A DNA stretch of 64,000 bases from an uncultured bacterium (lineage in GTDB: Bacteria; Cyanobacteriota; Vampirovibrionia; Gastranaerophilales; Gastranaerophilaceae). A program made the position numbers and the translations under genes. Every line of letters starts with the position of its first letter. Position 1 is the first letter of the stretch. Shown one piece after another: positions 20,591 through 24,489 of this stretch. The notes beneath the pieces are model-generated. The model did not search any database. It was given only the letters and a program-made list of their open reading frames with translations, and was not told where the DNA came from. The stretch spans positions 62,001-126,000 of the forward strand of contig CACYUI010000001.1 in the NCBI GenBank assembly GCA_902777605.1, written 5' to 3'.

Positions 20591-22366
20591 ATGGGTATGG
20601 CAGCTTCTCAGGCAAGGTATTTAGCACTTGTCGCTCGACAATCAAATTGTGAATACGAAGGACAACAGATAAATCAAGCAAGACTGGCTCTTTCAAATCA
20701 GTCTGCAAACTTGTTTAATCAAATGCTTGGTTTAACAGTCCCTGTTCCACCAAGCACACAAGATTTCACTAAGTATCAGTACTCTTTTACAGATGGTGTA
20801 AATAATTACACAATTGACAAGTGGAATCAGCTTGCACAGCCTGATAGCGAAGGTTATAACTATGTTGTAGATTACCATTACAAAGCAAATGTCTATACAG
20901 GCTCTCAAAAACAAATGAGCGATCCGCAAGTTCAATTCTCGGTTCCGGGAGCTGTAATATCACCTGACTATACTGCAACTGTACATGCTATTCAAGCTGC
21001 ATTAGAAAATATTAAAGAGAAAACAGATATATATGAGGCTGCAAAATCTGACTATTTGAGTTTACTTGCAAACTCAACAAGACTTGCAACATATAAGGAT
21101 ACTGCTACTTTTACAAAAGTTACTAACTACACGGGTGATGCAGAAAACGGATATACAATAACATACAATTCACCTCAAACCGAAACAATTAACGATGTTG
21201 AATACACTTTATATACTGATCCGCAGGACACACAGACAAAGTTCGGAAAAGCAGGGAATACATATTATGTGATTGACGGAACTAATGTGACACCGGTTGA
21301 CCCTACTCAATATGCTGATGTTATTGCCAGATTGGAACCAACAGCTGACAAAAAGACATTCCAATCATACGCATCAATTCAAGACGAAACTTTAAAATCG
21401 AAGATTGCTGATTCAATTGAAGTTTTGAAAAAATGTGACAGCTCAATAGATGCAGCACAAATATTTTATAACGCAGATGATGATGGCAATATAATGCTTG
21501 TTACACAAACTGATATTACTAATCTGGTAAGTAAAACAGGCACAGGTACAGCTACAATATTGCCGACTTATCATGTTAATAAAGACGGTACTGAACAAGA
21601 CAGCTGGCAATCAACAGAACAAGTTGCAAATGATTTGGCTAAGCTTTTAAACGCGCAAGTTGTTGCAAAATCTCAGTTAGATTTAGCAGAACAAGCTTAT
21701 GAACTTTTAAATGTTCCAAATTATGTAGGTAACAATCAGCTGACTCCGCTGAGTTCACTTACTGATGCTCAACAAGCGGAAATTAAACAGATTATGGCTG
21801 ATATGGCAGCGGAAAATGTTCAGACGAACTTCGGTAAATATTTTAATCCTGATACAGGTGAATATTACGGGGGAATTTACCAGTTTACACTTAATGGTGT
21901 AACATACTACACAACATATGATGACTTGGCTAACTCAGCTATTAACGGAAAAGGTATAAACAATATAGATGATCAGCCAAGACTTCCTTATTACAGAGCT
22001 GATTATGTTTCAAAAGAAATCAAAAAACAAGAAAAAGCTATTCTTGAAACTGATGCTCAAGGCAGATTCTCTTCTGTCAGATTTAGTGATGATACGATTA
22101 AATACTCCCTTAATGTTGAAACAATAACAGACGATAAAGCCTATCAAGACGCAATGAATCAATATTATTATGAATCAGCTAAATATGACAAGATGATACA
22201 AGATATAAATGCAAAAACTTCTGTAATTCAGATGGAAGATCAACAGTTAGAATTACGATTAAAGCAGTTGGATACAGAAAGAAATGCTTTAACAAACGAA
22301 ATTGAAGCAGTTTCTAAGGTTGTTAAAGATAATGTTGAAAAATCATTCAAAACATTTAGCAACTAA
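20591..22366 (+). CDS. Uncharacterised protein A of a five-gene block; helical ends, variable middle
   Basis: A 591-residue protein without signal peptide or recognised domain. Residues 1-48 are an amphipathic helix beginning MGMAASQARYLALVARQSN. The last 60 residues are a coiled coil ending in NVEKSFKTFSN. Between them lie a helical stretch (about 135-180), a Thr/Tyr/Asp-rich probably beta region (185-260) and further mixed segments. Both ends match the 110-residue protein at 24014, which has no middle, like the paired terminal helices of flagellin or needle subunits. That likeness is architectural, not homology. An AGGAGA site precedes the start. Function unknown. Confidence 0.75.
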   Translation: MGMAASQARYLALVARQSNCEYEGQQINQARLALSNQSANLFNQMLGLTVPVPPSTQDFTKYQYSFTDGVNNYTIDKWNQLAQPDSEGYNYVVDYHYKANVYTGSQKQMSDPQVQFSVPGAVISPDYTATVHAIQAALENIKEKTDIYEAAKSDYLSLLANSTRLATYKDTATFTKVTNYTGDAENGYTITYNSPQTETINDVEYTLYTDPQDTQTKFGKAGNTYYVIDGTNVTPVDPTQYADVIARLEPTADKKTFQSYASIQDETLKSKIADSIEVLKKCDSSIDAAQIFYNADDDGNIMLVTQTDITNLVSKTGTGTATILPTYHVNKDGTEQDSWQSTEQVANDLAKLLNAQVVAKSQLDLAEQAYELLNVPNYVGNNQLTPLSSLTDAQQAEIKQIMADMAAENVQTNFGKYFNPDTGEYYGGIYQFTLNGVTYYTTYDDLANSAINGKGINNIDDQPRLPYYRADYVSKEIKKQEKAILETDAQGRFSSVRFSDDTIKYSLNVETITDDKAYQDAMNQYYYESAKYDKMIQDINAKTSVIQMEDQQLELRLKQLDTERNALTNEIEAVSKVVKDNVEKSFKTFSN

Positions 22367-22452
22367 TAATATAGCAGCATAAATATACATTACTCAAAAA
22401 AGAAAGGAAGCAATAAGAGAAAAGTAAACAGGTTTAAAAAGATGAATATTAA

Positions 22453-22492
22453 AATCACTTATTAACTTATTAACTTATTCGCTTATTCATTT
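22453..22492 (+). repeat. Octamer tandem repeat before gene B
   Basis: Five successive 8-base units, AATCACTT, ATTAACTT, ATTAACTT, ATTCGCTT and ATTCATTT, lie immediately before the start codon at 22500. A matching five-unit array is found in the rpsL leader at 58575-58614. Confidence 0.75.
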
Positions 22493-22499
22493 AAAGAAA

Positions 22500-23357
22500 A
22501 TGTCTTACAAAAATGATAGTTACTTAGTAATAGCAAACAGATTCGGTTCAGCATCATCTGATGCGAAAGTTATGTTATACGAAACATATGACAGACTAAG
22601 AGATTTGACCGTATCAGGTTCAGCAAGTTCAGGAACAGGTTTTGAAGCAGCAGGTGGTTTCTTATATCAACTTGCAAGCTTATTCGCTCCGTCCGCTTTT
22701 ATGACAACAATGGGCGGTACTACTGCAATGAATATTCCTGGAACATCATATTGGAACAAATATACCGGTGGCACGGGTGGACTTACAGGAACTTATTCCT
22801 CTTTTGGAGTAAATTCTCTTGGTAACTATTCAGGCTTTCCAAGCGGTTACGCTGCAAATTTAGGATATCGACAAAGCGGATATACAACAGGCGGAGCTTC
22901 TGCAATTGGAGATTTATTAACAGGTTTTGGTTCCTCTGACGGTCAAGCAACAGGTTTTGCATCAGGAATCGGAAGTATTGCAGACATCGCAAGCACCGCT
23001 GCATATGGAATAGGAACAGCAAACGGCTATGGAATTGGCGGTAAGAATATCGTTATGCCTCTTGCCGGAATTATTTCGGGATGGGGCGGCATAATGACAG
23101 CAGCAGCACCTTATTTGGGAGAATTTGGTTTGCCTGCAGTTGTAATGGGTAATTTAATGCAAGGTACGACTTCTGCAGCGCTTTCTGCTTATCAAGCAGT
23201 ATCAAGTAACATTGTTGCAAATGCTGATACAATTCTTTCACAAAAAGTAGCAAACATTGAAACGGTTGTAAAAATGTTAGATACTCAAAGTGATGTTGTA
23301 AGAAAAATGCTTAAAGATGATATTGAATCTGCAAGCAAAGATATTCAAGATTTATAA
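22500..23357 (+). CDS. Uncharacterised Gly/Ser/Ala-rich protein B
   Basis: A 285-residue protein with an N-terminal helical part (1-37), a long Gly/Ser/Tyr-rich low-complexity region (about 38-180), a hydrophobic section (about 180-222, MPLAGIISGWGGIMTAAAPYLG) that could insert in a membrane, and a C-terminal helix rich in Asp, Lys and Val (230-285). No family is recognised. The layout recalls secreted pore or translocator proteins, but only in general form. The start has no clear Shine-Dalgarno site; an octamer repeat array ends 7 bases before it. It follows protein A by 133 bases on the same strand. Confidence 0.65.
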   Translation: MSYKNDSYLVIANRFGSASSDAKVMLYETYDRLRDLTVSGSASSGTGFEAAGGFLYQLASLFAPSAFMTTMGGTTAMNIPGTSYWNKYTGGTGGLTGTYSSFGVNSLGNYSGFPSGYAANLGYRQSGYTTGGASAIGDLLTGFGSSDGQATGFASGIGSIADIASTAAYGIGTANGYGIGGKNIVMPLAGIISGWGGIMTAAAPYLGEFGLPAVVMGNLMQGTTSAALSAYQAVSSNIVANADTILSQKVANIETVVKMLDTQSDVVRKMLKDDIESASKDIQDL

Positions 23358-23403
23358 TAGTTAAAATATTACATATTATTTACACGGGAAATAGAGAAAA
23401 GAG

Positions 23404-23631
23404 ATGCAAAGACGAACTTTTTACAGAACTATGCTTGACATATTTTTAGGAAATGCTGTTGTTAAAGCGATAATTTCTTGTGTAAAATTTTGTAACGAAC
23501 AGCGATATTATAATAATAAAGAATTAAAGTTTTTTGAAAATATGCCGATAGATAATTTAGGAAACAATCCTTTTTATCAAAAAAAGTTTATATTTGATAC
23601 GAAATCAATTAGTAAGGCTGGTCTAAAATAA
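23404..23631 (+). CDS. Small uncharacterised protein C
   Basis: A 75-residue basic protein with one moderately hydrophobic segment (about 10-28, LDIFLGNAVVKAIISCVKF) containing two cysteines (C26, C30), followed by a polar tail with several aromatic residues. No family is recognised. It sits 46 bases after protein B and about 100 bases before protein D on the same strand. A weak purine-rich site (AGAGAAAAGAG) precedes the ATG. Whether it is translated is uncertain. Confidence 0.45.
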   Translation: MQRRTFYRTMLDIFLGNAVVKAIISCVKFCNEQRYYNNKELKFFENMPIDNLGNNPFYQKKFIFDTKSISKAGLK

Positions 23632-23682
23632 AATGTTAACAAATGTAACAAACATGTCAAAAATAGGGCAATTATTGAAGAT

Positions 23683-23704
23683 TACATGTTTTATAATACA
23701 TGTA
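23683..23704 (+). promoter_or_regulatory. Dyad around a -10 box before gene D
   Basis: TACATGT (23683-23689) and ACATGTA (23698-23704) form a perfect 7-bp inverted repeat around TTTATAAT, which contains a consensus TATAAT (23692-23697). A third ACATGT lies at 23652-23657. The layout suits an operator placed on an internal promoter. No good -35 box is seen. Confidence 0.45.
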
Positions 23705-23732
23705 GGCTCAGATCGTGTAGGAGAAATAGCTT

Positions 23733-24002
23733 ATGCGTGAAGAGATACAAGATAATGTAAAACGGTTAGTGAATTTTCTGAATTTTGCGCGCTCATTCTT
23801 CAAACGCAAAAATCCTCTAAAGGCGCTAGCTATAAGCCTTATCTCAAGCCTAAAGGACATGCTTACCATAAGACAAAAACTTAAAATGGCTAAGTACAGG
23901 GTTACATATCACCAACATCAGCTTCACAAAATGGAAAGTTTGATAGCAGAAAGTAACGAACACACATTCCTGAAAGGCAAAAACTTAAACGAAACAAGAT
24001 AA
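23733..24002 (+). CDS. Small basic helical protein D
   Basis: This 89-residue protein is Lys/Arg-rich and predicted to be nearly all helix, with a leucine-patterned stretch (about 30-75) capable of coiled-coil pairing. No signal peptide and no recognised domain. An AGGAGAAA ribosome site lies upstream. It ends 11 bases before gene E, so D and E are almost certainly co-translated. A small basic helical partner next to a helical hairpin protein would suit a chaperone or co-subunit role, but that is a guess. Confidence 0.6.
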   Translation: MREEIQDNVKRLVNFLNFARSFFKRKNPLKALAISLISSLKDMLTIRQKLKMAKYRVTYHQHQLHKMESLIAESNEHTFLKGKNLNETR

Positions 24003-24013
24003 AGGAAACGATT

Positions 24014-24346
24014 ATGGGATTAATTGCCTCAAGTTTCAGAATGATGTATCTGACAGCGTACAAAATATCGCTGGAATCAAAGATTCAATGGATTGCTTCC
24101 GCAAAGATGGAATTGGTAGCATCAGCAGACGAGATAATGTCTTTAGGGAACGATTTGGATCCTGAAAATCCTGCCGTTAAGCAGATGGAAGCCCGAAGGG
24201 ATAAACTTGTAGTCCTTGAAAAGAAATTGGATTTGCAAATGCAGGAATACCAGAATAGACTCAAGATGGTTGATGCAGAACTTCAATCAGCTCAGGGAGC
24301 TGTTGATTCAGCTATACAAAGATCTTTCTCATATAACTTCGGTTAG
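24014..24346 (+). CDS. Helical hairpin protein E, short relative of protein A
   Basis: A 110-residue protein without signal peptide. Residues 1-48 (MGLIASSFRMMYLTAYK...) align without gaps to the start of protein A with 13 identities, including M1, G2, A5, S6, R9, L13, A15, E21, Q25, I27, A30 and L34. A turn, LDPENP (about 48-53), leads to a second helix whose last 35 aligned residues follow the pattern of A's C-terminus and share the terminal Ser-Phe. It looks like protein A with the middle removed. The size and fold type are those of small secreted or filament-forming helical hairpins. Function unknown. Confidence 0.75.
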   Translation: MGLIASSFRMMYLTAYKISLESKIQWIASAKMELVASADEIMSLGNDLDPENPAVKQMEARRDKLVVLEKKLDLQMQEYQNRLKMVDAELQSAQGAVDSAIQRSFSYNFG

Positions 24347-24375
24347 AAGAAATTAAATAAGATGCAATAATGAGT

Positions 24376-24404
24376 AAAAACAGGCACTAATAGTGTCTGT
24401 TTTT
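24376..24404 (+). terminator. Terminator closing the A-E block
   Basis: AAAAACAGGCACT and AGTGTCTGTTTTT pair around a three-base loop and are followed by TATATATT. It closes the five-gene block before lysA. Confidence 0.8.
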
Positions 24405-24489
24405 ATATATTATTCAATGTTTTAACTATGGAAAATTTTATATGAACTTTGATTATGGTACAATATATGTGACAATGAAATGAGGACAT

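Follow-up and report, generated by a model that had tools for sequence, protein, structure and literature searches.

The window analysed here is a 64,000-nucleotide stretch from the genome of an uncultured member of the order Gastranaerophilales (genome G000, 1.99 Mb), and the subject of this work is a block of five open reading frames (ORFs), A to E, on its forward strand, considered together with a second type III export gate in the same genome. ORF A (20591–22366) encodes a 591-aa protein whose hairpin-forming ends enclose an inserted domain, with conserved flanking β regions and a hypervariable centre (about aa 121–360). It is followed by B (22500–23357), a 285-aa Gly/Ser-rich protein; C (23404–23631), a fast-evolving ORF of 75 aa; D (23733–24002), a basic and probably helical protein of 89 aa conserved directly 5′ of E; and E (24014–24346), a 110-aa minimal hairpin that is single-copy in family f1. 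A sigma-28 (FliA)-type promoter, TAAAGTTT-N11-GCCGATAG, overlaps C on the forward strand (23525–23551), upstream of D-E. The five ORFs described in a first-pass annotation of the window were recovered at the same positions, and the hydrophobic stretch noted there in B is real, spanning residues 184–202 (mean Kyte-Doolittle value of 1.56 over 19 residues) and continuing to about residue 220. The terminator placed 3′ of E corresponds to a stem-loop with a T tail (24374–24406, forward strand), but this signal is weak alone, with one found against a shuffle mean of 2.7. Consistent with the same annotation, none of the five proteins was recognised: A to E matched no Pfam, PHROG or NCBIfam family above cut-off, A had no Pfam family up to an E-value of 5, a PDB sequence search returned no credible relatives of A, B or E, and no signal peptide was seen in any of the five by inspection. 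An N-terminal MKIQ..NFxG stretch considered as an effector signal was rejected, as it was present in 5 of 202 ORFs versus 3.6 in shuffles and showed no enrichment.

The block is conserved as a unit. The order A-B-D-E was found at all 59 close loci in which enough sequence flanked the block on either side and at 19 of 20 more distant syntenic loci from families f1, f3 and f7, and E orthologs were present in 57/60. Median dN/dS values of 0.04 for B, 0.05 for D and 0.06 for E point to strong purifying selection on these three genes, whereas C gave a value of 0.31. C was present in 56 of the 59 close loci and went unrecognised by sequence similarity in most other genera; because of its fast evolution, its poor recognition across genera and the internal promoter directed toward D-E, it appears weak as a gene and is best treated as doubtful or minor. 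The occurrence of B apart from A and E, which the first-pass annotation had named as evidence against a common system, was never observed, A, D and E lying alongside it in 59/59 loci. B consists of conserved terminal regions, a Gly-rich variable part and the hydrophobic stretch, and no translocator family appeared among its profile matches or PDB sequence matches. The database records that carry B are Gastranaerophilales, Melainabacteria or Cyanobacteria metagenome-assembled genomes or gut and rumen genomes, with a few labelled Acinetobacter.

A and E are members of a single protein family and have helical ends in common. The ungapped alignment of their N-terminal ends, with 13 identities over 48 positions, was confirmed. 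When E was left out and the end models were built on A and its paralogs, E scored 13.8 bits for the N-terminal end and 22.0 bits for the C-terminal end; the best of 2000 shuffled versions of E reached 9.0 and 8.4 bits. The likeness proposed at first reading is thus not a matter of chance composition at either end. Profile-profile comparison by hhalign of 63 A-type and 29 E-type sequences gave the same result, with P values of 2.5e-13 (probability of 98%) for the N-terminal ends and 2.2e-9 (96%) for the C-terminal ends. A search for further proteins with A-type ends found at least five scattered over G000, with the ends MGMAASQAR... and ...FKTFS enclosing unrelated-looking centres of very different lengths. 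We then used a 46-residue N-end profile as the census model across 146 Gastranaerophilales genomes representing 40 genera, and it matched 146/146 genomes and 40/40 genera at 1–15 copies per genome. In a phylum-level sample of 292 genomes, the matches were to members of the order, to none of five class-mates outside it and to one distant genome with a borderline E-value of 0.004.

Structure prediction revealed a shared end architecture in the two proteins and not the unrelated folds that had been named as grounds for rejecting the family. The AlphaFold model of E (pLDDT of 90.1) consists of helices at residues 2–46 and 53–108, and that of A (m65575f3b75cd; pLDDT of 90.9) has helices at residues 2–46 and 515–589, with a beta-rich part adjoining the hairpin and further inserted domains beyond it. 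Among 63 syntenic A proteins, the fraction of sequences with the majority residue was 0.96 at residues 1–30, fell to 0.17–0.48 at residues 121–360 and was 0.8–0.9 across the final 50–80 residues. Syntenic A orthologs span 138 to 733 aa, and the shortest (138 aa, G015) comprises little beyond the two ends. The predicted layout of A is therefore that of flagellin, with terminal helices, a conserved inner part and a hypervariable outer part, and the profiles, the paralog census and both models bear out the initial proposal of a family of helical-hairpin subunits, some carrying a flagellin-like surface insertion. In VIA structure comparison, flagellar rod, hook and filament chains were frequent among the matches of A, with both termini aligned: the distal rod had a Z-score of 7.8, the hook 7.4, the hook-filament junction 7.7 and 6.8, the polyrod 6.8 and filaments 6.3–6.5, all below 8 and exceeded by unrelated helical chains. 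The model of A thus appears built like an axial protein, a resemblance in architecture without detectable sequence homology to any axial family. The fold search with E returned a non-specific list of generic hairpins, including the IpaB coiled coil (Z-score of 12.3), and no needle family was found for E in Pfam or PDB sequence matches. A role for A as a replacement flagellin was rejected because G000 itself holds 10 flagellin-domain matches, which is many for a genome of 2 Mb.

Two full FlhA genes (PF00771) are present in G000. FlhA1 lies with fliP-fliQ-fliR-flhB on contig C2, and FlhA2 lies on contig C1 behind fliE, fliF, a gene in the fliG position and fliH; the relative of the fliG-position gene in a second genome, G001, had no Pfam match. 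The FHIPEP family, to which FlhA belongs, was detected in 146/146 genomes of the order and flagellin (PF00669) in 55/146, while FlhA1, defined as high-scoring FHIPEP matches (E below 1e-240), was found in 52, all of them with flagellin. None of the 91 flagellin-less genomes has FlhA1, whereas 89 have a full FlhA2 (G045 and G122 gave short matches only) and all 91 keep the A family. FliP, present in 145/146 genomes, usually occurs as a long and a short copy in flagellated genomes and as one short copy in the others. In the FlhA tree, FlhA2 forms its own clade (support of 1.0) whose sister is the single FlhA of family f8, and FlhA1 branches elsewhere. The FlhA2 of the flagellin-less genome G001 scored 705.8 bits against the NCBIfam FlhA equivalog (cut-off of 772.1) and 594.7 bits against SctV (cut-off of 692.25), below both, whereas the FlhA1 of G000 scored 850.4 bits, above the FlhA cut-off. 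The distance from E to flhA2 is 6–14 kb in 20 family-f1 genomes, which represent six genera. Judged by sequence, FlhA2 is part of a second type III gate and not of the flagellar one. A third FHIPEP gene in G000 (contig C10, 6016–7482; L057:6016–7482, minus strand) encodes the C-terminal cytoplasmic domain of FlhA only, at about 490 aa, and such a gene was found once in most genomes of the order. It adjoins a 319-aa gene whose look-alike in G001 (L166:7848–8810) adjoins a FlgE/F/G-like gene; the domain-only protein could be a free substrate-docking platform.

The genes that accompany FlhA2 were identified in genomes without flagellin. In addition to A-B-D-E, G001 encodes FliE, FliF, FliH and FlhA2, as well as FliO, FliP2, FliQ, FliR, a FliN-domain protein, FlgB, FlgC, two FlgF/G-like rod proteins, FliJ/YscO-like and FliK-like proteins (both below the Pfam cut-off), a 278-aa FlgE/F/G-like protein and a FliA/WhiG sigma factor (score of 241.6, above the family cut-off of 189.6). 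Eleven other flagellin-less genomes that were examined keep FlgB/C/F/G-like rod genes. In these 12 genomes, no ORF over 320 aa had a Flg_bb_rod match above cut-off of the kind that a full-size FlgE or FlgK would give; a short FlgE/F/G-like protein of about 280–320 aa is present in flagellin-less genomes. According to Abby and Rocha (2012, PMC3459982), flgB, flgC and fliE mark the flagellum and a secretin marks the injectisome. By this test the rod proteins FlgB and FlgC and also FliE are present in the flagellin-less genomes, and their absence, expected of an injectisome, was not seen. A 122-aa protein encoded at L164:3491–3859, in the second gate between fliQ and fliR, has an apparent signal peptide and matches T2SS-T3SS_pil_N weakly (E-value of 0.0014, below the cut-off, with no search aimed at secretins having been made); it is possibly an envelope or outer-membrane exit component.

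Sigma-28-type promoters link several scattered members of the A family to D-E. The sigma-28 consensus, TAAAGTTT-N10..13-GCCGATA, is known from enterobacterial FliA. Exact matches to the pattern in the 64-kb window number one, at 23525, with 0 expected. A scan of 239 kb of G000 DNA with up to two mismatches found eight sites, where about 0.1 were expected (one in ten shuffle runs). Five of the eight comprise the D-E site and four sites upstream of A paralogs, 35–100 bp before the start. In many close loci the D-E site matches the consensus perfectly, and the flagellin-less relatives G049, G050, G044, G042, G041 and G056 also conserve it. The wider set of loci was fetched around the A-E block, so the share of sites at D-E in that set is biased. 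Several ORFs without a recognised product also lie directly behind sigma-28-type promoters (L128:12842–14872, L009:10473–11357, a 416-aa ORF in L182 and a 137-aa ORF in L203), and these are candidates for exported proteins of the flagellum or of the second system.

These findings make it probable that the A-E block encodes exported outer parts of a second, flagellum-derived, non-motile type III machine, separate from the flagellum, which we call the FlhA2 system. Export of A, B, D and E by the second gate would best account for the data, and the presence of this gate alongside the family, like the sigma-28 promoters, is strong indirect evidence for the secreted system suggested in the first-pass annotation. 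A filament made of these proteins is a more tentative suggestion, and sequence comparison found no homologs among flagellin, hook, rod or needle proteins. Several points weigh against assigning the block to this machine, among them the modest flagellar Z-scores of A given above. A Foldseek search with A gave no significant fold match, the best being a flagellum at an E-value of 0.12. The hhalign probability of the A/E ends against flagellin, rod and hook ends was below 1%, and the proteins lack needle sequence homology and any Pfam match. In G000 about 121 kb separate the block from the flhA2 cluster. The A of the main locus has no sigma-28 site, as is the case for most main-locus A genes, and a close upstream site was found for only 6 of 130 scanned A-family members. 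Kinship among the genomes means that the co-occurrence counts overstate the independent evidence. Finally, class-mates of family f8 have a FlhA2-like gene and no A family, neither in their FlhA loci nor in their genomes by the N-end model, so the gate can exist without the family. In these class-mates (L248–L251), the FlhA2-like gene is followed by a FliI-like ATPase gene.

The alternative that survives best, though we regard it as unlikely, makes the A family a coiled-coil scaffold, inside the cell or in the envelope, that has nothing to do with type III export and merely neighbours the gate. It would fit the lack of homology to known axial proteins, the generic nature of hairpin folds and the occurrence of most family members as scattered singletons in the genome. 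Against it stand the universal co-occurrence with the gate, the proximity in 20 genomes, the sigma-28 promoters on scattered paralogs and the flagellin-like split between conserved ends and hypervariable centre. It is less likely still that A to E are extra flagellar parts, such as filament decoration, a cap or alternative filament proteins, that use the ordinary flagellar gate. Late flagellar genes are the usual targets of sigma-28 promoters, and G000 has rod and hook genes in addition to its roughly 10 flagellin-domain matches; however, the genome census largely refutes this explanation, as 91 of 146 genomes are without flagellin and FlhA1 and all have the A family, E and the D-E sigma-28 sites persist in flagellin-less genomes, and the block adjoins the flhA2 cluster rather than the flagellar gate in 20 genomes. 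A decaying flagellar remnant, in line with a survey of nine genomes that interpreted incomplete gene sets as a sign that flagella had been lost (Soo et al. 2014, PMC4040986), is highly improbable for a distinct paralogous gene set that occurs together with the flagellar gate in 52 genomes, with a near-universal second gate and dN/dS values of 0.04–0.06 for B, D and E.

With the block read as part of the FlhA2 system, a mechanism can be outlined. The A-E proteins, having no signal peptide, would leave the cytoplasm unfolded through the FlhA2 gate, and outside the cell their terminal helices would pack as a D0-like coiled coil, presumably forming a polymer. The division of labour that we propose is tentative in its details: E, the bare conserved hairpin, would be the likeliest polymer or adaptor subunit; A would expose its variable inserted domain at the surface or tip, its paralogs (1–15) having diversified for target binding or immune variation; B, which may be translocator-like given the hydrophobic stretch between its conserved ends, might insert into a target membrane; and D might be an accessory factor. 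It is conceivable, though somewhat short of an even chance, that the flagellar exporter of these non-photosynthetic cyanobacterial relatives underwent an ancient duplication and that one copy was recruited for contact or secretion, independently and along a line of descent separate from known injectisomes. The A/E family and B would then be the filament, surface and translocator proteins proper to this device, which would be universal in the gut order Gastranaerophilales.

The FlhA2 system shares much with the flagellum, or flagellar type III secretion system (F-T3SS), namely a FlhA/FliOPQR-type gate, FliF, FliH, FliE, FlgB, FlgC, FlgF/G-like rod proteins, a FliK-like ruler, the FliA sigma factor with its promoters and candidate axial proteins with conserved helical ends and a variable centre. 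It differs in persisting where flagellin is missing and no full-size FlgE or FlgK is recognised, in a FlhA2 and a FliF that score below the flagellar equivalog cut-offs, and in A/E proteins without detectable sequence in common with flagellar axial proteins. Like the injectisome, or non-flagellar T3SS, it has a type III gate apart from motility and candidate hairpin (needle-like) and hydrophobic (translocator-like) substrates in one block; unlike it, it retains FlgB, FlgC and FliE, its FlhA2 falls below the SctV cut-off, and A to E have no needle, tip or translocator homology. The filament-less flagellar basal bodies and export gate kept by the host-associated bacterium Buchnera (PMC8109811) offer another parallel. 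Buchnera has no recognised secreted proteins for its apparatus, whereas the FlhA2 system has a multigene family of candidate substrates, and its separate paralogous gate coexists with flagella in some members of the order. The intermediate T3SS of Myxococcales, proposed to be a relic of the passage from flagellum to injectisome (Abby and Rocha 2012, PMC3459982), likewise has a flagellum-related gate without motility function, but those systems are without FlgB, FlgC, FlgD, FlgE, FlgK, FliE and FliG, whereas the FlhA2 system keeps FlgB, FlgC and FliE. Two flhA genes were listed for ACD20 (Di Rienzi et al. 2013, PMC3787301), and a search of the literature, largely of open-access journal papers, turned up no account of a second type III system for Gastranaerophilales.

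Because the A family occurs in every sampled member of the order and the second gate is near-universal, the flagellin-less majority included, genes that were taken for a leftover flagellum look like a working secretion device. If this is correct, a whole order of common animal-gut bacteria, partly non-motile, has an undescribed type III export device, together with a large family of proteins that is diversifying and probably exposed at the surface. This would account for the 'partial flagella' genes that persist in flagellin-less Gastranaerophilales, provide an independent case of a flagellum put to other use that bears on the origin of injectisomes, and supply concrete candidates for contact with host cells, protists or other bacteria nearby.

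A conserved neighbour of E was also observed on the opposite strand in flagellin-less relatives (L113:19232–19867, L117:19–591 and L124:18921–19598), encoding a protein of about 190–225 aa with the pattern ...EGVGKKIVEALKxQSDIEI...ISLFVQT.

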